Shown here: piece after piece, positions 57 through 12,339 of the stretch | Layout of the letters: every line of letters starts with the position of its first letter | Numbering within the stretch: the first letter of the stretch is position 1 | Source of the DNA: Acidobacteriota bacterium | GTDB taxonomy: Bacteria; Acidobacteriota; Terriglobia; Acidiferrales; UBA7541 | Direction of reading: 5' to 3' | Assembly (NCBI GenBank): GCA_003223325.1 | Contig: QHYS01000186.1 | Coordinates: 1 to 45,053, forward strand | Length of the DNA stretch: 45,053 nucleotides | The notes under the pieces: model-generated | Seen by the model: only the letters and a program-made list of their open reading frames with translations | The model's database searches: none | What the model was told of the DNA's origin: nothing | Program-made: the position numbers and the translations under genes

Positions 57-159
57 CAACGACACCCACTACGAGAACAAAACTCTCCTTCCGGACCCTA
101 TAACGGACTAAGGGAAAGCCCGGATAGCCATCCCCGCCTTGTGGAATATAGAGCCCGCC

Positions 160-500
160 ATGTCCTGCCGATTGTTATTAGCGGATGATCACGCAATGGT
201 CAGGAAAAGCCTGCGCGAGGATTGTGTCATCGTTGGTGAAGCCGTAGATGGTCTGCAAGCGGTGCGATTAGCCAAGGAGCATGCCGGGACTGGACGGATT
301 GGATGCGGCCCGCCAGACTCGCATGGAGAGCCCCAAACGAAGATATTGATTCTGACGACGCACGACGCCACCCCATAATCGCCAAAATCCAACAGACAGG
401 TGTTCGCGGATATTTGCTGAAATCAGAGGCGCCGAAAGGTTTGCCGTTAGCAATCAACTCGCTACTGTGCGATCAGCCCTTTTTCGGCGTTCCTGGTAGC
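160..500 (+). pseudogene. Degraded NarL/FixJ-type response regulator receiver domain
   Basis: Receiver-domain pieces occur in order in all three forward frames. Frame 1 has MSCRLLLADDHAMVRKSLR (acidic-pocket DD) and then VIVGEAVDGLQAVRLAKEH. A second frame has PGLDGLDAARQTRMESP (about 284-334). Frame 1 returns with TKILILTTHD, and a third frame continues with GVRGYLLKSEAPKGLPLAI (about 395-460), which includes the conserved Lys. The segment that should carry the phosphoacceptor Asp is deleted, and the LuxR-type DNA-binding domain is absent. At least two frameshifts plus deletions indicate a true pseudogene, not one sequencing error. It faces the intact hybrid sensor kinase at 538-2847 and may be the relic of its output regulator (inference). 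Confidence 0.8.
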
Positions 501-537
501 GCTGGTCCTCCACGGAAAGACGACGTGAGACTCTGTG

Positions 538-2847
538 TCAGACGGCGACCGCCCTGCGGTTGCGGCGGGCTCTTCGTCTGGCCTTCATGGGCACCGCGGC
601 CACGGTTTGAATTGTCGAAAAAGGGGGATCCTCCTCAGCCGGACCCGCCTTCAGCGCTTGAGCGATCACGCCCAACAGGTTATCCCGCGAGAAGGGCTTC
701 TGCACGAACAAACCTCCCTCCTCAGAGTCGCTGTATCTCACGCCATAATCCTGATAGCCAGACATGTAAACGGTCCTAATCCTTGGATAGAGGCGCCGCA
801 GCACTGCAGCGAGATTTGGTCCGCGCATATGCGCCATCACCATATCCGTCAAGAGCAAATGAATCGGTTTGCCCCAACCCCTGGCTGATTCGAGCGCCTC
901 ACTGCCGCTCCCAGCGGATAACACCGTATAGCCTGCCGCCTCGAGGAAGCGCGAAGCCAAATCTCGCACAGCATCTTCGTCCTCGGCAATGAGGACGGTT
1001 TCGCCTCGGCTGGCAGCGAGCGGAGCTTTTGTCGGCGTGGCAAGCGGTTTTTCGGCTCCGATTACGCGCGGTAGGTAAACCTCGAACCGAGTTCCCTTCC
1101 CGGGCTCCGATTCCACCCAAATCCATCCGCCGCTTTGCTTGATCACGCCATACACCGTCGCCAGCCCGAGGCCGGTCCCTTTACCCAGTTCCTTTGTGGT
1201 GAAGAAAGGCTCAAAAATGCGCGCCTTGGTCTGGGCGTTCATACCGCAGCCCGTATCGGTAACCGCTAGCATGACGTAGGAGCCGACGGGCACAAGAGGA
1301 CGATTTTTCGCGACGTCCTTGTCCACGGTGACGTTGTGGGTTTCAATGGTAAGCGTTCCGCCGTTTGGCATCGCGTCGACGGCGTTCACCGTGAAATTCA
1401 AAATGACCTGCTCAAGCTGTCCGGGATCAGCCTTGACTCGGCCAAGCGTCTCGTCCGGCCGGAAGCCAAAAAGGACATCTGCGCGAATCAGCCGTGTGAG
1501 CATTTTGGCCATATCCGAGATAAGCGCGTTCAAGTCCAGGACTTTCGGCTGCAAAACCTGCATGCGGCAGAAGGCCAGCAGTTGCCGCGTGAGCGAGGCA
1601 GCGCGATCGGCAGCCTGGTCGATCTGACGACCGCCGGCGTAGAGCGCCTCGTCTGGCTGTAACTGCTCTAGCATCAGAGCGGCATGTCCTTTGATTACGG
1701 TCAGCAAATTATTGAAGTCGTGGGCCACTCCGCCGGCCAGCCTGCCGATAGCTTCCATTTTCTGCGATTGCCGTAGGTGCTCTTCGAGCGTTTGCCGTTG
1801 CGCTTCGTTCGTATTTAGTGTTGAGCGCATGCGACCAAAGGCGCGGGTCAGTTGGGCTACCTCGTCACTCCCGCGAGGGCTCAATCGATAGTCAAAGTCC
1901 CCCTTTTCGAGCGCGTCCACGCCGCCCAGCAAACTGCCGAGAGGACGCGTGAACCTGTCGCAAATGGCAAACACGAGCGTTCCTCCGGCGAACACAGCAA
2001 CCAGGCCCAAGCCGAGGAGCAGATGATTCAAGCGCGCCAGCGAAGCCATGGCTGCGCGGTCGGATTTCAGGACGATTAAGCTGACGGGCGGCTTAACCCC
2101 CGGCGTTAAAATCTTCAGGCTGCCCCAGTAACGTTCGCCATCGATCTGCAACTGTTCCGGCGTGGCTTGATCGCGAAGCTGATTCGCCAGTTCCGGCTGC
2201 TTGAGGGCGGGAATGGTGCTTGCCACGATATCGGAGCCGTACAACAACGCCACTTGCGCTGAGGAAATCTCTCCGAGATCGCGCAACTCCTGGGCATCAA
2301 TTCCCCGGCCTGCGATCACCATGCCAGACAGAACCTTGTTCGCCGGAGGATCACCATAGAAGGGCTGGATCGCTACCTGGTAAAGCTGCGTGCCGCTATA
2401 CCACCATCCGTTGCGCTCACCTGCCCTCCGTAAACGGTGCAACATCGCTTCCGCCGCGGGAATTGGAACCCCCCCTGCCCTGGTGTGTATGGCGAGGATG
2501 CGCCCATCTTGATCGGTTAACCCGAGGAGATCGTGACCCGGAGACTGCCAAGGGTCTTCGCTAGCGTCGTCGATTGTTGTAACGTCGCCATTCCGCATAG
2601 ATGCCACGGTTGCCAATAGGTCAGCTTTATGGCTGAGAGCGATTTGGCGTTCCTGCTGCATCACCTGGAACGTCAAGATCGCATTTCGAGCTTCGTTCTC
2701 CACCTGACGCTGGAGTTGACCCTCCGCGTTGTGACGCAGAATAAGCAAGGTTGCGCAGGTGAGCCCCGCGATCACTGAAACGAGCGAAGATAACAGTTTG
2801 GTGCGGAGTTTCAGAACGCTGGCCTTTCCGGGCTCGATGCGCCGCAA
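538..2847 (-). CDS. Hybrid sensor histidine kinase with C-terminal receiver domain
   Basis: This is a 769-residue membrane-bound two-component kinase. The order is: TM1 (about 20-36), an extracytoplasmic sensor of about 235 residues, TM2 (about 276-296), a HAMP linker (about 298-350), a dimerisation domain with phospho-acceptor H376 in HDFNN, and an HATPase domain. The ATPase has the N-box NAVDAMP (488-494), G1 DTGCGM (531-536), F-box FEPFFTTK and G2 GKGTGLGL (555-562). A CheY-like receiver follows, with acidic residues E622/D623, phosphoacceptor D668 and K717. The tail is Arg-rich (MKARRRARRNRRAVAV). All catalytic motifs are intact. The sensor type is not clear from sequence; it lies between two TMs in a CHASE4- or dCache-like arrangement. 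No intact response regulator is adjacent; only a pseudogene lies downstream in convergent orientation. The signal is unknown. Confidence 0.93.
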   Translation of the reverse strand: MRRIEPGKASVLKLRTKLLSSLVSVIAGLTCATLLILRHNAEGQLQRQVENEARNAILTFQVMQQERQIALSHKADLLATVASMRNGDVTTIDDASEDPWQSPGHDLLGLTDQDGRILAIHTRAGGVPIPAAEAMLHRLRRAGERNGWWYSGTQLYQVAIQPFYGDPPANKVLSGMVIAGRGIDAQELRDLGEISSAQVALLYGSDIVASTIPALKQPELANQLRDQATPEQLQIDGERYWGSLKILTPGVKPPVSLIVLKSDRAAMASLARLNHLLLGLGLVAVFAGGTLVFAICDRFTRPLGSLLGGVDALEKGDFDYRLSPRGSDEVAQLTRAFGRMRSTLNTNEAQRQTLEEHLRQSQKMEAIGRLAGGVAHDFNNLLTVIKGHAALMLEQLQPDEALYAGGRQIDQAADRAASLTRQLLAFCRMQVLQPKVLDLNALISDMAKMLTRLIRADVLFGFRPDETLGRVKADPGQLEQVILNFTVNAVDAMPNGGTLTIETHNVTVDKDVAKNRPLVPVGSYVMLAVTDTGCGMNAQTKARIFEPFFTTKELGKGTGLGLATVYGVIKQSGGWIWVESEPGKGTRFEVYLPRVIGAEKPLATPTKAPLAASRGETVLIAEDEDAVRDLASRFLEAAGYTVLSAGSGSEALESARGWGKPIHLLLTDMVMAHMRGPNLAAVLRRLYPRIRTVYMSGYQDYGVRYSDSEEGGLFVQKPFSRDNLLGVIAQALKAGPAEEDPPFSTIQTVAAVPMKARRRARRNRRAVAV

Positions 2848-2897
2848 AGTACAGTTAAAGAAAGACTTAGTAGATTGCGTGCTGAATTTGCGACCGG

Positions 2898-2926
2898 ACT
2901 ATAGCAACTCTGTCAAGCCGGTACAA
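2898..2926 (-). promoter_or_regulatory. Possible sigma70-type promoter of the hybrid histidine kinase
   Basis: On the minus strand TTGTAC (2926-2921) is followed after 17 bases by TATAGT (2903-2898). The -10 matches 5 of 6 and the -35 only 3 of 6 consensus bases. The implied start is about 45 bases before the kinase start codon. This is a read-by-eye prediction. Confidence 0.35.
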
Positions 2927-3033
2927 TGGAACCTGGGTACTTGATTGTGCTTCTGTGAGTACTAGTACTAGTATGGCGATGGAGCGCTTAGCTCTCCTGA
3001 ACTACAAGCAAACCTGCGGAGAAACCGGCCTTC

Positions 3034-3464
3034 TTAGATCCCCTTATGGATTCTCCATACGAAGACCGACAGCGCCATCCAGATCAAACCCGCGGCGTCA
3101 AGGACTTGCCAGGCGGAGTGTCTCGCCAGTCTCGCCAGCGTCTTGTAGACAGTAAAGGCAAAACCAAGTAGACCTGCGCTACCCATGGCCGCGCCTCCCG
3201 CGTCAACTCTCGCCACGTTCCTGCTGAGCGAGACGCCGTTTACTCCGACGCGCCGTTTCTCTTCCGGTTCGTGGTTCTCGATCGGAGTGGCGCTTGCTGG
3301 GCAGATCGTCGGAAAGGCCAGGAAAAGAATCGCCGATTCCAGGTCCAAACTTTCTGCCGATGATCCCCACGAGTTGCGGTTATCCCTCCACCCACGAAGA
3401 AACGAGCCGCGTACTGTTGCCAGGTGGTTGGGAGCACGCTGAAGATGTCGACGATGATTTTGGT
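3034..3464 (-). pseudogene. DUF3147-like membrane protein, second copy, with two frameshifts
   Basis: The family sequence can be followed across three frames. From a GTG at 3464 it reads VTKIIVDIFSVLPTTWQQYA and FFVGGGITAT. It then shifts to GIIGRKFGPGIGDSF, and shifts again to FLAFPTICPASATPIENHE, continuing to the stop at 3034. The GxxGrkFGPxIGGxFLAFPaIxPAsAtLxExHE pattern is characteristic of the DUF3147 family of small inner-membrane proteins of unknown function. Two compensating single-base shifts interrupt about 145 residues that otherwise look conserved, including the C-terminal hydrophobic segments. This could be recent decay or sequence error. The GTG overlaps a TGA (GTGA) that may end the upstream copy. 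Confidence 0.6.
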
Positions 3465-3792
3465 CACGTTTTCGCCAACCAGAGAACCAAAGTCCCAGGG
3501 CTGCCGCCCGCACAACTATGCAAACACTGCTTGCTACGATCCCCTGAATTTTGCGCCGCATCATCAGCCAGCTCACACAATGCGCATAAAAAAAAACGCC
3601 ACGGTATCGGCAAGTCACAGCGTAGGGTCTCCCTGTCGGACAAGTGCCAGTCCCCAACGTAGCCAGCGCGATTGAGGGAGCGGCTCCGAATGGTCTAGCA
3701 AAACTCTTGGGCTCGAATACGTCACCGAGCAAGGCAAAAGCGGAGACCAGAGTGCCGCCGATCAGGAATCGAAAAAGCAGTTCTTCCTGCAT
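3461..3792 (-). pseudogene. DUF3147-like membrane protein, first copy, probably frameshifted
   Basis: From ATG 3792 the frame reads ELLFRFLIGGTLVSAFALLGD and GDVFEPKSFARPFGAAPSIAL, typical of the start of DUF3147-type proteins. It continues through a hydrophobic stretch containing YAHCVSWLMMRRK. The stretch between the APSIALATLG and FFYAHC segments looks shorter and less hydrophobic than I expect for the family. The frame then runs on into the next gene without a stop near the expected length. A shift near 3485 would give a short tail ending at TGA 3463-3461, overlapping the GTG of the second copy, an arrangement usual for coupled paralogues. That shift is inference. No clear ribosome binding site was seen before 3792. 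Confidence 0.45.
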
Positions 3793-4049
3793 ATTCCGAC
3801 GACGGATTGCTTCTCTCAGATTGGCCCGAAGCCCAAGGAGGAATTCGTCCAAAATTGATGCAAGTTCAAGGTGTTCGAAGGGAATTGAACCCGCCTTCGC
3901 ACACCCCACCAGATGTGCGTACAGGTATGGCGGGATATTGACCCGATCGGCCTTGTTGAACCCGGCAGGCCGGGAGGGCCAATAGCTCTTAAGTAGCACC
4001 TTGATTCAGCAAGCCTCGGCTTTGCATTTGGGTGCTATATAGTGCACAC

Positions 4050-5855
4050 ATGGTTACTAGCAACGGCTCGGTTGCCACTGCTTGCCATTCCACTTCCGCT
4101 GACGCAAAAATTGTGCGACCGGATGCAACGAGCGCACTGCACAACGAGCCGCTTCTGGTTGGAACCATTCTGGCGTTTACTGCCCTATTATACGCACCCA
4201 CGCTGAGGTTCGGATTCGTCTACGACGATCATCTACAGATCGTACAAAATCCGCTCGTGCATTCTTGGCGTTTCATTCCAGAAGTTTTCAGGAGCCATGT
4301 TTGGGAGGCTTGGGATCCGGGTGATGCCGGCAACTATTACCGCCCCTTAAATGTCTTGTGGTTCCGAATTAATGACGCGCTGTTTGGTTTGCGTCCTGTG
4401 GCGTGGCATGCGACAGCGATCCTATTGCACGTAGTTGCTACCTGGCTAGTCTACACCTTGGTGCAGCGCCTCTCGGGGAAGCTGCTGGTTGCTTCATTCG
4501 CGGCGCTGCTCTTTGCGGTACACCCAATGCGGCACGAAGTCGTAGGGTGGATTTCGGGTACGACAGAATCGCTTTGGTCGGTGCTGTTCCTGCTGGCATT
4601 CCTCGCCTACTTGCGATCGCGCGAAGGCGGCCGCTGGATAGCCTTTTCGTGCGCGCTTTACGCCGCTGCGCTTTTGGCAAAGGAGACGGCCATCATGCTG
4701 CCGGTCCTTGTGTTTGCTCACGCCGCGATATACGGCAACCGCGCGGACAACGCCAGACCAGGGCTTCTGGGCAGGCGATTGTCGAGCGCCACCAAAACAG
4801 CGGCGATATATGCCCCAGTAGCTGTCGCCTACGCTGCGGTACGCACTGCAGTTTTGCACGGGTTCACTCATACGCCTAATACGCTTTCATGGAAGGCATT
4901 TCTGCTTACGCTGCCCTCGGTGCTTATTTTTTATGCGAAACAATGGTTCCTCCCCATTCAGTTTGCTGAGTCCTATAGCCATCCGATGTGGCCCCATTTC
5001 GACCTCTTCCACGTCCTCCTTCCGGCCATTGGACTGTTCGCGATTGTTGCGTTTGTGTGGTTCTGGCGCAGCGTACTTGGTCAGCGCGAGGTACTCTTTG
5101 CCGCAGCCTGGGTGATTGCGTTGTTGCTTCCTTCACTCGATCTTTTCGTTTTTCCTGAGGGCGAGCTGGCCCATGACCGATACTTTTATTTGCCGAGCTT
5201 TGGAGTGTGTTTGCTCCTAGCCTTGGCCATGGAAAAATTGGCGCAGGGTCCAGTTCTCCTCGGTCTTCCACGGAAATGGCTGTTTGCCACCCTCGCTGTG
5301 GTCACTCTGCTTTCCTACGATACGCTGAAGGCGACATCCTATTGGACCAATGATTACCGTTTGTTCGAGCATGCCTACCAAGTAGGCCCGCGGAGCACCA
5401 AAGCTCGGAACGGTTACGCTAACGAATTGGCGACGGCAGGCGATTACTCGAAGGCTATTCCGATCATGCAAGGACTCCTTACGGAGCAACCAAACAGATG
5501 GGAGCCCAATTTCAATTTGGGTCACGTCTTCTACCAGTTGGGCGAATTCTCAACTGCGGAGCAGTATCTGAACCGGGCGCAGCAACTAGACCCCGCAATG
5601 CCCTTCCCTTATCTCTATCTTGGATTGACATATTTGAGAATGAACCGCTTTCAGGATGCGGAGGCAAACCTGCGCCAGGCCGTCTACGTGCGCCCCTATG
5701 AACCGTTTTTGCATTTCTCTCTGGCAAGCATTCTCGTTACAGAAGCAAAATGTGATGAGGCACGCGCGGAGTTTCTTAGGGCTCTGGACTTGCTGCCTGA
5801 TATGGCTCACGTTCAAGATCAGCTCGACAACTGCGGTAAAGCTAAAACGAACTGA
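4050..5855 (+). CDS. TMTC-like GT-C membrane protein with C-terminal TPR repeats
   Basis: The protein has 601 residues from ATG 4050; an in-frame GTG at 4032 would add six. It has about 9-10 hydrophobic segments over the first ~430 residues and at least three TPR units in the last ~150 (ANELATAGDYSKAIPIMQGL; NLGHVFYQLGEFSTAEQYL; YLGLTYLRMNRFQDAEANL). Shortly after the first TM lies FVYDDHLQI, the acidic motif expected at the first extracytoplasmic loop of GT-C glycosyltransferases, and a loop motif AHDRYFYLPS lies near the end of the membrane part. The architecture is that of TMTC-type protein O-mannosyltransferases, common as uncharacterised genes in Acidobacteriota. Donor and acceptor are unknown. 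No strong ribosome binding site is seen at either start. Confidence 0.8.
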   Translation: MVTSNGSVATACHSTSADAKIVRPDATSALHNEPLLVGTILAFTALLYAPTLRFGFVYDDHLQIVQNPLVHSWRFIPEVFRSHVWEAWDPGDAGNYYRPLNVLWFRINDALFGLRPVAWHATAILLHVVATWLVYTLVQRLSGKLLVASFAALLFAVHPMRHEVVGWISGTTESLWSVLFLLAFLAYLRSREGGRWIAFSCALYAAALLAKETAIMLPVLVFAHAAIYGNRADNARPGLLGRRLSSATKTAAIYAPVAVAYAAVRTAVLHGFTHTPNTLSWKAFLLTLPSVLIFYAKQWFLPIQFAESYSHPMWPHFDLFHVLLPAIGLFAIVAFVWFWRSVLGQREVLFAAAWVIALLLPSLDLFVFPEGELAHDRYFYLPSFGVCLLLALAMEKLAQGPVLLGLPRKWLFATLAVVTLLSYDTLKATSYWTNDYRLFEHAYQVGPRSTKARNGYANELATAGDYSKAIPIMQGLLTEQPNRWEPNFNLGHVFYQLGEFSTAEQYLNRAQQLDPAMPFPYLYLGLTYLRMNRFQDAEANLRQAVYVRPYEPFLHFSLASILVTEAKCDEARAEFLRALDLLPDMAHVQDQLDNCGKAKTN

Positions 5856-5956
5856 AGCCCGCTCGCGTCGAAGGCGCGTCTACCGGGACCGCCGGAACAA
5901 CGTCTTTCGGCGACACATCAAGCCTTGACGGTCGGACTCGCCCGATAGATCAGAGG

Positions 5957-5998
5957 AAAAAAGCAAGAAGGAGAGGAGTCGAACTCCTCTCCTTCTTG
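5957..5998 (-). terminator. Rho-independent terminator of the pilin gene
   Basis: A perfect 16-bp stem (5964-5979 pairing with 5983-5998) closes a 3-base loop. On the minus strand it is followed by G and then six T residues (5962-5957). It begins 22 bases past the pilin stop codon. Stem strength and T-tract fit a strong intrinsic terminator for a highly expressed single gene. Confidence 0.9.
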
Positions 5999-6019
5999 TC
6001 CGTGCGACCCAGAAAGGAC

Positions 6020-6487
6020 TTAGTTGCCGATGGGGGTACTGGCCGAGTTTGCGCCCGTGCCAGAGGTGTTCGAGCGGATCACGCCCGACTGATCGGTGTA
6101 ATACATGTTCTGTCCGGTCGTGGCCGCGGTAACGGGTGAGGCCGTGATGCTGTAAGACTGGTTGAGCGAGCCAGGCGAGTACACGAAGGTGTAGCCGCTC
6201 TTGGTACCAGCAGAAAGCACAGAGTCAATCAAGTCTGCCGACGTGGAGCTCGCGTTGCCGGACCCGACTGGACCCAGGTTCGTGAGCGCCGCTGGAAATG
6301 TTCCATAGCTCGTGGAATAGGCGATGCACGCTGTGTTCAACGTACGCAGCGAGCCCACCGCGGAAGCCTGATTGGCGGCGATCTTCGACCGCAACAGGTT
6401 GGGGATGGCGATGGCCGCGATAATCAGAATGATCGCCACCACGATCAACAGCTCAATTAACGAGAAACCCTTTTGTCTTTTACGCAT
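6020..6487 (-). CDS. Type IV major pilin or pseudopilin (PilA-like)
   Basis: This is a 155-residue prepilin. The short basic leader MRKRQKG is followed by the class III cleavage site G7|F8 and FSLIELLIVVAII, with the conserved Glu at mature position 5 (E12). A hydrophobic helix runs to about residue 30. The C-terminal domain is Ser/Thr/Gly/Ala-rich, contains no Cys, and is typical of Acidobacteriota pilins. The product would be cleaved and N-methylated by PilD and assembled into a surface pilus. No assembly gene is adjacent. The isolated locus and strong terminator suggest abundant monocistronic expression. A minor pseudopilin of a secretion system cannot be excluded. Confidence 0.93.
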   Translation of the reverse strand: MRKRQKGFSLIELLIVVAIILIIAAIAIPNLLRSKIAANQASAVGSLRTLNTACIAYSTSYGTFPAALTNLGPVGSGNASSTSADLIDSVLSAGTKSGYTFVYSPGSLNQSYSITASPVTAATTGQNMYYTDQSGVIRSNTSGTGANSASTPIGN

Positions 6488-6825
6488 TTGAATTCGTTTC
6501 CTCCGAAGGCGCTTGGGGATTCTTGGTCCCTTGCCTTTATGCCTGTATTAGTTGCACGGCAGCCGCCAAGCCAGGCGGAAGCTGGTTATTCTTCGGACAC
6601 ATTTCTCGAAGCCCTTAGAAATGAAGGCGCTACACGCGGCCACATCCTTGACCGCTGCAGTCGTCGCGACTTCGGGATCCGCGGGGTTGACATATTGCGA
6701 CAATGAAAATTGCGAAATGTGACAAAAAATGGCGCTCCGCCGGGCTAGGGTTGTTAAGGTTCATATAAAGCATGGACATGACTGAGGGCCATTGCAGAGG
6801 CGTTAATGTCATCTGAAGTTATGCG
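6488..6825. other. Intergenic region between divergent pilin and deacetylase genes
   Basis: No coding region was recognised in 338 bases. The stretch holds two copies of ATTGCGA (6694-6700 and 6709-6715) with a 15-base period, just after a TTGACA at 6687-6692. No convincing -10 box follows the TTGACA. The repeats could be a regulator site, but this is only a possibility. Confidence 0.4.
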
Positions 6826-7713
6826 ATGAAACTGCTGATCGTGAATGCGGACGATTTCGGTCTCACCGAAAGCATCAATCGCGCGATTATGGTCGCACAC
6901 CGCGACGGCATTTTGACGAGCGCGTCACTCCTTGCGAATGGTCCGGCGTTTGACCAAGCCATTGCTTCAAGCCAGCAGTTTCCCCAGCTCTCAGTCGGCG
7001 TGCACCTCAATATCAGCGAGGGAAGCCCCGTCTCGCCTGCCGCTCGCATCCCCAGCCTTGTGAACGGCCGCGGTGAGCTCCACCTGAGCCCCTTCCACCT
7101 CTGGGTGAGAATTCTGACGGGGCAAATAAGCCTCGAGGATATTCATTCGGAATGTCGTGCCCAGGTCCTCAAGCTCCTTGACGCAGGTCTCGGGCCAAGC
7201 CATTTGGATGGTCACCTGCATGTGCATGTCCTGCCGCAGCTTTCTCACATTCTGATCGCGCTGGCGCGCGAATTTTGCATCCCCTACGTTCGCTGTCCAG
7301 CGGAAGACCTCGGGGCAACGTTACCGGCGCTTTGGAAGATTGCCGGCACCGGTATCGCCACGCTCGAGCGGTCCGCCATCGCCTATGGAGTAAGCTCATT
7401 CGCACGCCGACTCAGAGAGCAATTGCGCATGGCTGGACTCTTCTGCCCGGACGCTTTTTTGGGCCTCGCGCACACCGGATTCTTAGATACGAAATCCCTG
7501 AGTGCCCTTCTTGCCCTCGTGCCGAATGGCACCACGGAGTTGATGTGCCATCCCGGATACGCTATGGCGCAGGTGGAATCTATTGACGGGGGGCGCGCGC
7601 GCGCGCGCGAAGCCGAGGTGGTTGGTTTGACTGCACCGCAGGTCAAGGAGATCCTCGCAAGCCTGGGGATTCGCCTAAGTAACTTCCGCGATTTGGAAGC
7701 GAATGTCTGTTGA
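6826..7713 (+). CDS. ChbG/YdjC/HpnK-family carbohydrate deacetylase
   Basis: This is a 295-residue cytoplasmic enzyme of the YdjC/ChbG/HpnK fold. It starts MKLLIVNADDFG, with the ADDFG metal/acid motif at residues 8-12. It has GVHLNI, the metal-binding HLDGHLHVH segment (about 127-135) and ELMCHPGY near residue 240. Family members deacetylate N-acetylated sugars such as chitooligosaccharides; the hopanoid-associated HpnK subgroup has the same layout. No other hopanoid gene lies in the window, so the substrate is open. The convergent neighbour is a GT2 glycosyltransferase, which fits glycan or lipid-sugar modification. A GC-alternating run at 7593-7609 encodes the GRARAREAE segment. The ATG start matches the usual family N-terminus. 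Confidence 0.88.
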   Translation: MKLLIVNADDFGLTESINRAIMVAHRDGILTSASLLANGPAFDQAIASSQQFPQLSVGVHLNISEGSPVSPAARIPSLVNGRGELHLSPFHLWVRILTGQISLEDIHSECRAQVLKLLDAGLGPSHLDGHLHVHVLPQLSHILIALAREFCIPYVRCPAEDLGATLPALWKIAGTGIATLERSAIAYGVSSFARRLREQLRMAGLFCPDAFLGLAHTGFLDTKSLSALLALVPNGTTELMCHPGYAMAQVESIDGGRARAREAEVVGLTAPQVKEILASLGIRLSNFRDLEANVC

Positions 7714-7742
7714 CCCGGTCCATTAGCCTGCAGCTCGAGACG

Positions 7743-8552
7743 TCAGTTCTGATGGGGCAAATCACAATCTCGCCCTAAGCATTGGCCTTCGGAAGGATTC
7801 CCCGCTGCTCTAACCTCCGCGATTTGTGCCTTTGCATTTCGCGACAACCGCCCGGCCGCGAAACGGATCCTCAGCAGGTCCATAAGCATGCGCGGCGACT
7901 CTAGCAGGATGGCATGACGAGTGGGGCGCCGTTCGACGACGTCAAATTCGACCTCCCGAATGGGCAGCTCTCGTTTCCAAGCGGCGAAGAGGAATTCCAC
8001 ATCGAACGAAAATCCCCTTAAGCGAAGGCTCTCGACAACCGGCAGGAGTGGCTCGCGCACAAAGGCCTTGAAACCACACTGCGTATCGCGCAGCGGCAAC
8101 TTCAGAATCGCACGCACCAGCACTCTATACACAGCGCTGGCCAGGAAACGCGAGCGGCTGGGAGCCGAGCTCATCGGCGCGGGACGACGCGAAGCGATTG
8201 CCACCACGGCCCCATCGTGCAGGGCCTCTAGCAATCTCAGGATATCCTCGGGGCGGCCGGGCAAATCCGCGTCCGCCACAAATACACACTCTCCGCGACT
8301 GCCCAATATTCCCCGCCGAATGCTAGCCCCCTTTCCCGCATTCACAGAGTTGCGCAACACACGAAGGCTTTCAAAAGCGTGTCGCCATTCGCCGACGAGA
8401 ACAGAACTGTTATCCGTCGAGCCGTCGTCGACGACGATCACCTCGGCCGCGAACGGTTGATGGCTCAAGAACGCACGAAGGCAATCGAGCGTTACGGGCA
8501 ATATTGCAGCCTCGTTATAGGCCGGGACGACGATCGATAAATAAGGATTCAT
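7743..8552 (-). CDS. Family 2 glycosyltransferase, polyprenyl-phosphate glycosyltransferase type
   Basis: This is a 269-residue GT-A protein. It starts MNPYLSIVVPAYNEA, followed by EVIVVDDGSTDNS (nucleotide-sugar site). Next comes GKGASIRRGI and the DxD-type ADADLPG motif at about residues 92-98. LPLRDTQCGFKAF and FSFDVEFLF follow; these are typical of dolichyl- or undecaprenyl-phosphate glucosyltransferases. No C-terminal membrane segment is present, so it is probably membrane-peripheral. The likely role is charging a lipid carrier with glucose or a related sugar, perhaps feeding GT-C enzymes such as the TMTC-like protein at 4050-5855 (inference). It is convergent with the deacetylase, with 29 bases between the stops and no clear terminator. 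Confidence 0.85.
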   Translation of the reverse strand: MNPYLSIVVPAYNEAAILPVTLDCLRAFLSHQPFAAEVIVVDDGSTDNSSVLVGEWRHAFESLRVLRNSVNAGKGASIRRGILGSRGECVFVADADLPGRPEDILRLLEALHDGAVVAIASRRPAPMSSAPSRSRFLASAVYRVLVRAILKLPLRDTQCGFKAFVREPLLPVVESLRLRGFSFDVEFLFAAWKRELPIREVEFDVVERRPTRHAILLESPRMLMDLLRIRFAAGRLSRNAKAQIAEVRAAGNPSEGQCLGRDCDLPHQN

Positions 8553-8676
8553 ATCCTCTCAGGCGCACGTCTTCGCAGGCGTTGTCCATCTCCCAATCCG
8601 ACAAATTAACTAGGCTCAACTTGTACTTTCAGGCTTCTCCGAAGTCAAGCAAAGCCTCAGGCGACTCAGGCGACCG

Positions 8677-8829
8677 CTAAACAGAGCACGACTCGTTTAT
8701 CATCGAGAGGTGGCCGGTCGGATTCCCTGAAGACCCACTGGAGGAATTGGAATTGCCGCCGCAGCCCCAGAAAAGGAGTAGGAGCACCGCAACGAAGCCC
8801 CCGAGCACACGAGTAACCCTCGAATTCAT
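8677..8829 (-). CDS. Small secreted lipoprotein (50 residues)
   Basis: From ATG 8829 a 50-residue frame encodes a basic start (MNSRVTRVLGG), a hydrophobic stretch and FWGCGG as the lipobox region, with the lipid-acceptor Cys at residue 22. A Ser/Gly/Asn-rich linker and a short tail ending in NESCSV follow. An AAGGAG ribosome binding site sits seven bases before the ATG, which strongly supports translation from this internal start. The frame opens further upstream, but that extension has no signal or ribosome site. No family was recognised. The product would be a signal-peptidase II substrate anchored in the outer or inner membrane. It lies alone, 124 bases downstream of the divergent end of the GT2 gene. 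Confidence 0.6.
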   Translation of the reverse strand: MNSRVTRVLGGFVAVLLLLFWGCGGNSNSSSGSSGNPTGHLSMINESCSV

Positions 8830-9178
8830 TGAATTCTCCTTGCGGAGCCTGCGCCCGTATCGCAGTCTCCTTTTGTTGTGTAATGGTCCGATAGTTAGCG
8901 CCGGACCGACCTTCGGGTGCCACGATCTTTCGCCCAGTCCCCCCACAAAACACAGCCAGTCGAAGATAGTTGCGCTGGACGGCCGAATGAGTGATGGTAC
9001 GAAGACTGCGATCAACTCGCCGAATACTGGACAACGTAAGCGTGCCCGCTGAATAGCATGCTCGGAGACTTCACAATCACGGTGACGGGAGGCACGACCG
9101 ATTTCTTTTGATTTTCGTGAAATCGCCATTCCCGGCAAACCGCAGAAGCCGCCAGAAGTGGTACCATCGCGCCAAGCT
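8830..9178. other. Intergenic region, no recognised gene
   Basis: About 350 bases lie between the small lipoprotein and the amidohydrolase. A 19-codon stretch ending at TGA 9109-9111 (LGDFTITVTGGTTDFF) looks like the last strand of a secreted beta-domain, but a stop lies seven codons before its only ATG. It may be a relic of a lost gene. Nothing else was seen. Confidence 0.35.
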
Positions 9179-10468
9179 ATGGCCAAGCGGCTCGCTTATC
9201 TACTGGCATTGCCTGCGTGCCTTCTCGCGCTCACATATCACGCGCCAGCTCAAACAAACACCGTGCCGGCGCCCATTGTGCTGCACGCGGCGCGGTTGCT
9301 AGATGTTGAAACCGGACGAATATTGGCGCCCGGCGAAGTATTAGTGCGAGGCGAACGCATCACCGAGGTCGGTTCCGCGGTGACCCATCCGGCCGGAGCG
9401 CAGACGATTGATCTGGGCGACACAACCTTGTTGCCGGGGTTGATCGACGCGCATGTGCACTTATTTCTGCATCCGGGTGCCGAAGATTTGCAGACGATTC
9501 AGGAGTCGGTGCCGCAGCGAACCATCATGGCCACGCTGGCTGCCCGCGCAGATCTCATGGCCGGGTACACGGCAGAGCGTGACATGGGTACCGAAGGTGC
9601 AGGCTCAGCCGATACCGCCGTGCGCAATGCAATCGAGCAAGGCCTGATCGCTGGCCCGCGGCTCCGCATCAGTGGGAACGCGATTTCCATCCTTGGCGGA
9701 CACGAAGACGCCGTCGGCTACAATCCCGAACAGCGCGTCTTTCCAAATGCTACTTACGCCAATAATCCCGCCGAACTCGTGGCCGTCATTCGCGAGCAGA
9801 TCAAGGAAGGCGCCGACTTCATAAAGATCTACGAAACCGGCGAGGATTCTTTTCGCAACGGGCAATTCTCAACGTCATATCAATACACGGAAGCCGAACT
9901 TAGCGTGGCAGTCGGCGAAGCCGCGCGCGTAGGCAAGCGCGTTGCCGTTCACGCCACGGGCGAGCCGGGTACGCTCTATGCCGTTCGAGCCGGTGTGGCC
10001 TCTGTCGATCATGCCTATCAACTAAGTGATGAAACCATGCGGCTGATGCACGAAAAGCAAATCCCCGCCGTGCCAACTCTCACAATTGAGGAGTACTTTG
10101 CCCAACATCCCTCTTCGCCGGAAGAAACCACCTGGGGCCGACTGCTCGAATTTCACGCACAGCAGTTCCGTAAGCAAGTTGCCGCCGGCGTACCTATGGC
10201 CGTCGGCTCTGACGTCGGGCCTTTTGCCCACGGCACGCAGGCACGTGAATTTGTTCTCATGGTCAAATACGGCATGACGCCGCTCGCCGCTTTACAAGCC
10301 GACATGATCGCCAGTGCTAAATTGCTCGGTTGGCAGGGGCAGATCGGTGCCCTGAAAGCGGGCTACTTCGCCGATATAATCGCTGTGCCTGGCAGTCCGC
10401 TGCAGGACATCAGCGCTTTGCAGAAAGTTGCTTTCGTCATGAAGGGCGGGGTCGTTTACCGCAAATAA
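9179..10468 (+). CDS. Secreted amidohydrolase, imidazolonepropionase-like
   Basis: From ATG 9179 the protein has 429 residues; a GTG at 9158 is less likely because the ATG gives a clean signal peptide (MAKRLAYLLALPACLLALTY, probable cleavage after APAQ). It is a metal-dependent TIM-barrel hydrolase. It has the N-terminal beta-sandwich strand ILHAARLLDVETG type, the metal motif GLIDAHVHL, the Lys segment FIKIYETG, HATGEPG, SVDHAYQ and the catalytic Asp in AVGSDVGP. The closing sandwich segment is LKAGYFADIIAV. Exported members of this group cleave dipeptides, including Xaa-Pro types, or cyclic amides. A role in peptide or organonitrogen salvage is inferred. The transcription unit appears single. 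Confidence 0.88.
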   Translation: MAKRLAYLLALPACLLALTYHAPAQTNTVPAPIVLHAARLLDVETGRILAPGEVLVRGERITEVGSAVTHPAGAQTIDLGDTTLLPGLIDAHVHLFLHPGAEDLQTIQESVPQRTIMATLAARADLMAGYTAERDMGTEGAGSADTAVRNAIEQGLIAGPRLRISGNAISILGGHEDAVGYNPEQRVFPNATYANNPAELVAVIREQIKEGADFIKIYETGEDSFRNGQFSTSYQYTEAELSVAVGEAARVGKRVAVHATGEPGTLYAVRAGVASVDHAYQLSDETMRLMHEKQIPAVPTLTIEEYFAQHPSSPEETTWGRLLEFHAQQFRKQVAAGVPMAVGSDVGPFAHGTQAREFVLMVKYGMTPLAALQADMIASAKLLGWQGQIGALKAGYFADIIAVPGSPLQDISALQKVAFVMKGGVVYRK

Positions 10469-10746
10469 GCGTGCCGACGGGGCCGGCATTCCTGTCGAAC
10501 GGCCAAAGGAAACCAGTACGTCTCCACTGTTGAGAACCATCGCCAGTCGTTCACGCCAGTACCCAATTCAATACAATCACATGCATGTCGAGGCATCACA
10601 CGGATATACCATCGGTCGCGACGCGCTCACAAATATATTTCGCGAATTCTGGCCGGATATCGCCGTCCACGTCCTGCCTCGCCACCCGTAAATCCGCTCT
10701 CCCGCATCAGCTCTTGAGTTCGGAACATCCTGGTTCGGGATGCGAT

Positions 10747-12150
10747 TTAGGATGGGCTCCGTCTACCGTGGCTGTCCGCATACTCCAGCAATTGCATGAA
10801 TCCGAAATCCTGATGGAGTTGCATGTGGCAGTGGAAGAGCGTCAAACCGGGATTATCTGCGACAAAAGTTATGGCGGCGGTTCCCCGGCTTCCTACGCTG
10901 ACAACGTCCTTCATCAGCCCGGCCATAGGTTTCCCACCGACTTCGACGACCTCGAACGTGTGGCGGTGCAAGTGCAATGGGTGGATGTCACCGGTGCCCT
11001 TGTTGTCGAAGAAGAGTTTGTAGCGCTTCCCTTTCTCCAGACGCAGCTTTTCGATATCCGGAAAACCCTTGCCATTGATCGTCCAGCGATTGAAGTCGAC
11101 TTTGTGCCCTGGAATTTTTTCAAACTTCATCTCGAAGGTGTGATCAGGTTCGGGCGCAGTGCCGCCGCTCCCAAACATTGAGTAGTCCCAAGGACCGCGA
11201 ACGATACCCGAAGGCTGCTGCCATTGGGGCTCTCCGCTCTTGTCTGCGTATTCGACCACTATGCCCATGCCCATCTTGCGTTCCTCTTCATTCGCCGAAC
11301 CGAGAATCCACACGCCGGGATTATTCATCTCCACAATGGCATCAACGCGCTCGGCAATATCCAAATAAACGATATCCACCATCTGGGGATGCGGAACGGG
11401 ATTGCCGTCCATGGCCACGACGCTAAAACGATGGCCGGGAAGCGCCAGCCTGATTTCGTCCGTGGCACTCGCATTCAAGAAGCGAAATAAAAGGCGCTGC
11501 CCCATACGCACACGAAGCGGTTCGCCGCTCCCGAGCATTTTGTCGTTCAACGTTGCCGATTTGTAAGCGATCTCCCATCCGTTGTCAGCCGGGCCCTTGG
11601 GGGCCAAAGATGGCTCCCAATGATGCGCCGCGATGCAGACTTCCTGGTCGTAGTCGCCGGGGTGCCGCGAGGGTTCGACAATTGCGAAACCATACTGGCC
11701 CGAGAAACCTGCCCGGGTTAGGTCAGCATGAGCCATCGAGTGCGTGTGATACCAGCGTGTGCCGGCGGGCTTGGGCGTGAAGCGATAGCGACGATGGCCG
11801 TGTGCGGGTATATCGGGCGTTCCTTCCTCAACCGACCCATCCACCGCTGAGGGAATCAGCTGTCCGTGCCAGTGTACGGTCTCGGGTACGTCCGTGTCGT
11901 TGAACACATCGACAGTAACAGGCTTCCCCTCTCTAAATCGCAGGATCGGGCCAGGAGCGGAGCCGTTATAGCCGACTGTCTTTATGGTTTTTCCGGGTCC
12001 GATCTCCAGAGATATCGGAGCTATGCGGAGCCTAACGTTCTTCTGGTTACTGGTTGCGTTGTTTGTATCCAGCGCCGTCAGTGGCAGCGAGCAAAGCGAC
12101 GGAAGGCCAAGCGAGGCCAACCCCGAAGTCAAGAAGTCCCGGCGATTCAT
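10747..12150 (-). CDS. Tat-exported multicopper oxidase (laccase/CueO/SufI-like)
   Basis: This 467-residue protein begins MNRRDFLTSG, a twin-arginine signal. All four copper-ligand regions are present: HWHG (93-96), WYHTHS (134-138), HPLHLH (390-395) and HCHMQLH (440-446). C441 is the type 1 copper Cys and M452 the likely axial ligand. It should therefore be a catalytically competent three-domain oxidase, unlike SufI-type proteins that have lost copper. Possible roles are copper resistance (Cu(I) oxidation), metal oxidation or phenol oxidation in the periplasm. A GAGGAGG ribosome binding site precedes the ATG by about eight bases. The gene is divergent from the NHL-repeat gene at 12340, with a 189-base gap. 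No copper-sensing regulator was seen nearby. Confidence 0.93.
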   Translation of the reverse strand: MNRRDFLTSGLASLGLPSLCSLPLTALDTNNATSNQKNVRLRIAPISLEIGPGKTIKTVGYNGSAPGPILRFREGKPVTVDVFNDTDVPETVHWHGQLIPSAVDGSVEEGTPDIPAHGHRRYRFTPKPAGTRWYHTHSMAHADLTRAGFSGQYGFAIVEPSRHPGDYDQEVCIAAHHWEPSLAPKGPADNGWEIAYKSATLNDKMLGSGEPLRVRMGQRLLFRFLNASATDEIRLALPGHRFSVVAMDGNPVPHPQMVDIVYLDIAERVDAIVEMNNPGVWILGSANEEERKMGMGIVVEYADKSGEPQWQQPSGIVRGPWDYSMFGSGGTAPEPDHTFEMKFEKIPGHKVDFNRWTINGKGFPDIEKLRLEKGKRYKLFFDNKGTGDIHPLHLHRHTFEVVEVGGKPMAGLMKDVVSVGSRGTAAITFVADNPGLTLFHCHMQLHQDFGFMQLLEYADSHGRRSPS

Positions 12151-12339
12151 ATCCCATTCCTCCTCGAATCGCTTCGCGGCGAATTACAGAAATTTCAATT
12201 AGGCTGGTGAGAACATAACGCATCCGGCCTTCACATTCAACGCGCCTGATTCGGGGGATGTGACAGCGAGAATAATTCGCCGGTCCGCAGCAAGCAGTGG
12301 TACAACACTCCACACCATGAAACCAGCCAGGAGGTCTCC

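Follow-up and report, generated by a model that had tools for sequence, protein, structure and literature searches.

The window analysed here, a stretch of 45,053 nucleotides of Acidobacteriota DNA, is the start of one contig in a draft genome of 6.1 Mb and 377 contigs. It holds, side by side, the genes of a membrane glycosyltransferase of the GT-C superfamily with C-terminal tetratricopeptide repeats (TPRs), a type IV pilin, a carbohydrate deacetylase of the YdjC/HpnK type and a family 2 glycosyltransferase (GT2) of the polyprenyl-phosphate-sugar synthase type (Table 1). An original prediction, made from the nucleotide sequence alone, had read these genes as a protein glycosylation set, and we find all four at the places it gave, with identities confirmed by open reading frames (ORFs), domain matches and fold.

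The GT-C/TPR enzyme and the neighbouring pilin

The longest ORF of the GT-C/TPR gene spans 4032-5855 on the forward strand (607 amino acids, aa), but the ATG at 4050 is the better start because the orthologue in congener G003 (L081, 87% identical, 601 aa) begins there. Pfam matches the TPRs (residues ~463-524; helices 456-600 in the structural model) and gives no match to the membrane part. An AlphaFold model of the protein (predicted local distance difference test score 88.6, predicted template modelling score 0.88) was compared with known structures by VIA-align, and its membrane domain aligned over ~320-355 residues with yeast oligosaccharyltransferase (OST; 8agb_A, Z 21.5), archaeal OST (3waj, Z 21.2), Pmt4 (9i5l, Z 20.8) and ArnT (5f15, Z 19.9). 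Both this fold match (Z 19-21.5) and the acidic motif of the first periplasmic/lumenal loop (D65 D66) place the protein in the GT-C superfamily. The membrane match came from VIA-align; Foldseek with the same model returned TPR proteins among the 50 matches listed, and when the GT-C alignment was searched against PDB sequences, the 60 matches listed of 348 were of TPR type. Across 32 aligned GT-C sequences, the window's included, D65 D66, R104 P105, H126, H133, K217 E218 and R383 are invariant, and Y386 of the RxxY motif is kept in 31. The invariant D, D, R, P, K, E and R residues speak, at the level of sequence, for retained catalysis.

A GT-C membrane domain followed by TPRs is also the architecture of the human O-mannosyltransferases TMTC1-4, for which the motif description in PMC7801869 gives M1 DD, M2 SHKSYRP, M3 RxD, M4 KE(T/Q)xxT, M5 DW and M7 ERxxY and names ligand-binding residues whose counterparts are conserved in the window protein. 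The protein matches M1 in the first loop, the YRP of M2, the KE of M4 and the RxxY of M7; in the M4 region KE is invariant, the following T (T219) is present in 24 of the 32 sequences, the window's among them, and the second T is absent. Unlike TMTC1-4, it lacks the RxD motif in loop 2 (GTTE instead), no DW motif could be located, and the DUF1736/TMTC model of Pfam-A gave no match at E 0.001. For these reasons we do not file the protein as a TMTC; it resembles the TMTCs in its fold and several catalytic motifs and may work in a similar manner.

The pilin carries an N_methyl domain (PF07963, 3.8e-10; also TIGR02532) and a prepilin signal, GFSLIE, followed by a hydrophobic N-terminal helix, which identifies it as a type IV pilin. 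It is Ser/Thr-rich as had been noted from its sequence (31% S+T from mature residue 31 onward). Several near-identical pilin copies are scattered through the genus outside the pilus cluster (L112, L113, L082, L083, L121-L127). The DNA of the window pilin is 96% identical to a copy in its own genome (C293), with a similarity limited to the gene itself, and 90% and 86% identical to the copies at the matching sites of G003 and G001, respectively. Gene conversion or recent copying could possibly account for this pattern, and the pilin tree is poorly resolved.

Each neighbouring pair among the four genes lies on opposite strands, from which we infer separate transcription units and no operon. The region contains 9 terminator-like sites compared to 5.1 expected from shuffled sequences, and the hairpin between the pilin and GT-C/TPR genes is by far the longest.

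Table 1. Genes and other features of the locus (positions within the window)
Feature	Position	Strand	Evidence
GT-C/TPR membrane glycosyltransferase, TMTC-like	4050..5855	+	ORF, TPR matches, AlphaFold/VIA-align, conserved residues, tree
Terminator-like hairpin (16 pairs, then T run), 3' of the pilin gene, between pilin and GT-C/TPR	5964..5998	-	Terminator scan
Ser/Thr-rich type IV pilin (proposed acceptor), with several similar copies dispersed in the genus	6020..6487	-	PF07963, own-genome copies, DNA comparison
YdjC/HpnK-like carbohydrate deacetylase	6826..7713	+	PF04794 YdjC 1.6e-66 (Pfam); TIGR03473 206.8 bits, cut-off 232.6
GT2 of polyprenyl-phosphate-sugar synthase type, DPM1-like catalytic domain	7743..8552	-	PF00535 5.5e-25; PDB matches
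GT-C-bearing segment with no counterpart at the corresponding site (L083) in congener G001	3220..5957		blastn blocks
Hybrid histidine kinase flanking GT-C/TPR, context only	538..2847	-	Domain match, neighbourhoods

Orthologues in the pilus clusters of relatives

The GT-C/TPR gene is recurrently linked to pilins. In a survey of 60 relatives, with the window genome excluded and pilins taken from among the matches listed (150 rows), 92 GT-C homologues were found in 32 genomes, and at least 14 of these homologues (in 11 genomes) have a pilin within 5 kb compared to 0.70 expected. Among the 25 best-scoring homologues, at least 11 are linked in this way, in 10 of 14 genomes, compared to 0.29 expected; these expectations, and the one given below for the deacetylase, take placement in the genome to be random and count related genomes as independent although they are not.

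When 70 of the 126 GT-C sequences were placed in a tree, the window enzyme grouped with its G003 orthologue (support of 100 in the Shimodaira-Hasegawa-like approximate likelihood ratio test, SH-aLRT), then with the enzyme of the G002 pilus cluster (L084; 99), and then with those of L088, L134, L135 and L137 (100). All five of the latter loci have pilA and lolA directly upstream of the GT-C/TPR gene. Downstream lie pilC in L084, L088, L135 and L137 and pilB in three of the five, and neither was found in the 10 kb downstream of the gene in L134. By sequence, the window enzyme is thus an orthologue of enzymes encoded within the type IV pilus clusters of relatives, which comprise pilB-pilT-pilC-pilS-pilR, copies of pilA (pilA-pilA2), lolA, the GT-C/TPR gene, pilC2, pilB2 and pilM. 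There the gene has the setting of a pilin accessory glycosyltransferase, inside a pilin or type IV pilus locus; in the window it adjoins a pilin without pilus assembly genes around it. Among the matches listed in a search of the open-licence literature in PubMed Central (PMC), we found no description of a type IV pilus cluster with a TPR-bearing GT-C.

The enzyme is present in 12 of 50 assessable pilus clusters, a sample that is not random (12 were fetched for lacking it and about 9 for having it) and that leaves aside 13 of 63 cluster loci with either no pilin match or no recognised PilC and no GT-C seen. The G003 cluster (L123) belongs to these 13 solely since its PilC and PilB share one frame. 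On the GT-C tree, at least 9 changes are required to explain the pilus-linked label, which was assigned from neighbours up to 6 kb away with some rows added by hand; on the PilC tree, the presence of GT-C requires at least 8. It follows that these enzymes repeatedly joined or left pilus loci.

Several of the relatives' pilus clusters encode a second GT-C, divergently oriented between the pilR side and the pilA copies. This protein of ~440 aa is found in 6 of 12 clusters with GT-C/TPR and 4 of 42 without it (Fisher p 0.005, uncorrected for kinship and obtained with a search profile built from such clusters). Examples divergent from pilA are L084 740-2143, L087 2626-3945, L095 3845-5173, L123 5976-8604 and L126 2985-5777; two copies occur in two cases, and PF13231 (PMT_2) matches 2 of 3 proteins scanned. 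Five of the 42 clusters without GT-C/TPR hold another ORF with at least 7 hydrophobic stretches, a neutral result by a crude measure on which GT-C/TPR itself scores 6, and the one of these five that was scanned (L215) gave no family match. In the G003 cluster, PilC2 and PilB2 form a single 876-aa frame (L123 11078-13708) that may be a fusion or an assembly effect, and a similar open frame of 878 aa is given for G087.

In a broader sample of 78 loci, drawn from the best 80 of 259 confirmed homologues, 9 loci have a pilin no more than 5 kb away, all of them from Acidobacteria, the group from which alone the pilin profile was built. The closest named locus in this sample comes from an Acidobacteria metagenome-assembled genome with an isolate name beginning 'gp2' (L132, 87% identity). 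Bacterium HR30 (L206) has pilB-, pilC- and pilR-like genes near its GT-C.

The deacetylase and GT2 pair and the history of the locus

The best PDB match of the GT2 is ArnC (9bhc), with further matches to dolichol-P-mannose synthase (5mlz) and sll0501 (5ekp). In the relatives surveyed (window excluded), 22 of the 35 deacetylase rows, from 22 of 34 genomes, have an ArnC/PgfS-like GT2 no more than 500 bp away, compared to 0.03 expected, and the 2 rows from G001 and G003 have a DPM1-like GT2 at this distance, as in the window, so that 24 of the 34 relatives having a deacetylase encode it beside one or the other type. An ArnC-like GT2 was not found in the four genus genomes at E 1e-30, and together with the DPM1-like neighbour this suggests that one polyprenyl-phosphate GT2 was swapped for another type in the genus.

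NaxD, a member of the YdjC family, works with FlmF2 in Francisella. Similar to that couple, the window deacetylase adjoins a polyprenyl-phosphate-type GT2; the likeness is one of gene pairing, and unlike the general pattern of NaxD-like pairs seen here, the partner in the window's genus is DPM1-like and not ArnC-like. By analogy with NaxD, presented in PMC10927774 as a deacetylase for N-acetylgalactosamine on undecaprenyl phosphate, the chemistry is likely to be synthesis of polyprenyl-phosphate-linked N-acetylhexosamine followed by N-deacetylation. The pair would then make a polyprenyl-phosphate-linked hexosamine for an acceptor that need not be the pilin. A hopanoid role was considered and dropped: HpnK (TIGR03473) is the best NCBIfam model of the deacetylase, but the score lies below the curated cut-off (Table 1), and no hopanoid gene was seen among 28 window proteins (a subset of the window ORFs) scanned with Pfam. 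The neighbours of the relatives' deacetylases, which bear on the same question, were compared only against the query set of this analysis.

These two genes are best read as a module separate from GT-C/TPR and pilin. None of the 92 GT-C homologues lies within 10 kb of a deacetylase, a DPM1-like GT2 or an ArnC-like GT2 (draft contig breaks may hide some cases), and the deacetylase regions of 8 relatives (L222-L229) gave no match to pilin, PilB, PilC or GT-C. Conservation of gene order among relatives had been proposed as a check in the original prediction; linkage recurs for two pairs, GT-C/TPR with pilin and deacetylase with GT2, but not for the four genes, which are found together in only one of the four genus genomes, that of the window.

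Comparison within the genus bears on how this arrangement arose. Window positions 108-5873 are collinear with contig C524 of G003 except for an extra ~880 bp between histidine kinase and GT-C/TPR (3098-3977) for which that G003 site has no equivalent, and positions 5905-12320 match its contig C490 with gaps and a short inverted block (8699-9004). G003 thus has GT-C/TPR on a different contig from pilin, deacetylase and GT2, and not near the contig ends. In G001, window segments 3074-3219 and 5958-6736 correspond by blastn to positions 4628-4764 and 4934-5710 of L083, only 170 bp apart, and its kinase-pilin-deacetylase-GT2 block has no GT-C at the site. The order pilin-deacetylase-GT2 is retained in three of the four genus genomes (window, G001 and G003). 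The segment with GT-C/TPR is a candidate insertion or deletion, possibly a gain in the lineage of the window and G003 or a loss in G001. In both G001 and G003, lolA and pilC2 of the pilus cluster have no GT-C gene between them, and from this and the blastn layout we conclude that the GT-C/TPR gene of the genus left the pilus cluster or was replaced there. The hybrid histidine kinase adjoins GT-C/TPR also in G003 and the pilin in G001; the window ORF at 3034-3999 has no Pfam match.

Predicted pilin glycosylation and its alternatives

Our best reading, which we hold with moderate confidence, is that the GT-C/TPR enzyme is a predicted pilin O-glycosyltransferase. It probably decorates pili with sugar, as judged from its sequence relatives, because these keep the enzyme inside the pilus gene cluster. 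Working on the periplasmic side, it would transfer a sugar from a polyprenyl-phosphate carrier to Ser/Thr residues of type IV pilin subunits, with the TPR domain helping to hold the acceptor. In these Acidobacteria the gene would be an optional accessory to the type IV pilus locus, one that left this locus in the window's genus and, in the window, came to lie beside one of the dispersed pilin copies. By gene context the enzyme resembles TfpO/TfpW of Pseudomonas aeruginosa, whose locus, according to PMC11841053, has a variable membrane glycosyltransferase gene beside the major pilin and a terminator after the pilin gene. Unlike TfpO/TfpW, the enzyme discussed here has TPRs, and its gene comes after lolA in the relatives' clusters and converges on the pilin gene in the window.

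Several observations weigh against pilin glycosylation by this enzyme. In the window, the convergent orientation and the terminator-like hairpin between the genes indicate that GT-C/TPR and pilin are not co-transcribed. Most GT-C homologues in the survey (78 of 92) have no listed pilin within 5 kb, and 38 of the 50 assessable pilus clusters have no GT-C/TPR, which implies that pili generally do not need the enzyme. A search of the window's draft genome with proteins and PF00482 found no PilC, while the same PF00482 search was positive in 11 of 13 genomes; a working pilus in the source organism is thus uncertain, though the missing PilC is likely a draft gap. No pilin glycan is known here. The Ser/Thr content of the pilin, offered earlier as an argument for glycosylation, carries little weight: an enrichment that initially seemed strong (p 8.5e-5, 22 versus 28 pilins) was dropped as a sign of glycosylation. 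In a comparison enlarged by further genomes, Ser/Thr-rich pilins are commoner in clusters with GT-C (12 versus 38 clusters, p 0.006 with kinship ignored), but the difference is gone in 8 phylogenetically independent pairs on the PilC tree (on average 1.8 for, 1.5 against and 4.7 tied).

The most serious competitor, possible but clearly less probable, is that the targets of the GT-C/TPR enzyme are other exported proteins or envelope glycans and that its adjacency to pilins reflects shared regulation or chance. Homologues are indeed widespread in bacteria without recognised pilus neighbours, as in most of the broader sample described above, one genome (G043) alone has 17 GT-C matches, and several acidobacterial paralogues are not pilus-linked; yet most of the clade to which the window enzyme belongs is pilus-linked, and the best-scoring homologues are linked far more often than expected. 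A loss of sugar transfer, with the protein kept as a pilus assembly factor in the manner of TfpY, would suit the position of the gene between lolA and pilC in the relatives' assembly clusters, and PMC11841053 describes TfpY as aiding pilus assembly, with no pilin modification by it reported. We consider this very improbable given that the catalytic-type residues are invariant in all 32 sequences and that most of the pilus clusters examined lack the gene.

Compared to pilin glycosylation by GT-C/TPR, it is less likely, and indeed unlikely, that all four genes form one pathway in which GT2 and deacetylase make the donor that GT-C/TPR transfers to the adjoining pilin. The genes are adjacent in the window, three of them stay together in the genus, and a GT2 lies within 400 bp of GT-C/TPR on the same strand in 7 of the 78 broader loci, which makes a link between GT2 and GT-C generally plausible. 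However, the strands alternate, GT-C homologues of relatives are not found near the deacetylase or either GT2 type, the G001 block lacks the enzyme and G003 encodes it on another contig. Of the glycosylation set first proposed, the link from GT-C/TPR to pilin has therefore held up, through the fully supported tree grouping and the recurrent neighbourhood, whereas the single cassette has not. Adjacency in a single genome can make two separate sugar modules resemble one set.

Pilin glycosylation is known mainly from Proteobacteria. If the GT-C/TPR enzyme does glycosylate pilins, its recurrence in pilus loci of Acidobacteria, a common but little-studied soil phylum, would extend this modification to a new enzyme class and give the human TMTC O-mannosyltransferases a bacterial counterpart open to testing by knock-out and mass spectrometry. 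A far-reaching combination, quite unlikely as a whole, would have a bacterial TMTC-type enzyme select pilins via its TPRs, with GT2 and deacetylase supplying polyprenyl-phosphate-linked free hexosamine, so that pili carry positively charged amino sugars by a route distinct from PglL, TfpO and TfpW, and acidobacterial pilus loci would have acquired and lost TPR-GT-C genes repeatedly.

In other phyla, GT-C/TPR genes also occur in tandem runs (L150, L154, L157, L186 and L203), with nine in L186 from Gemmatimonas, and a GT2 like that of the window lies directly beside the tandem genes in L150, L154 and L157.

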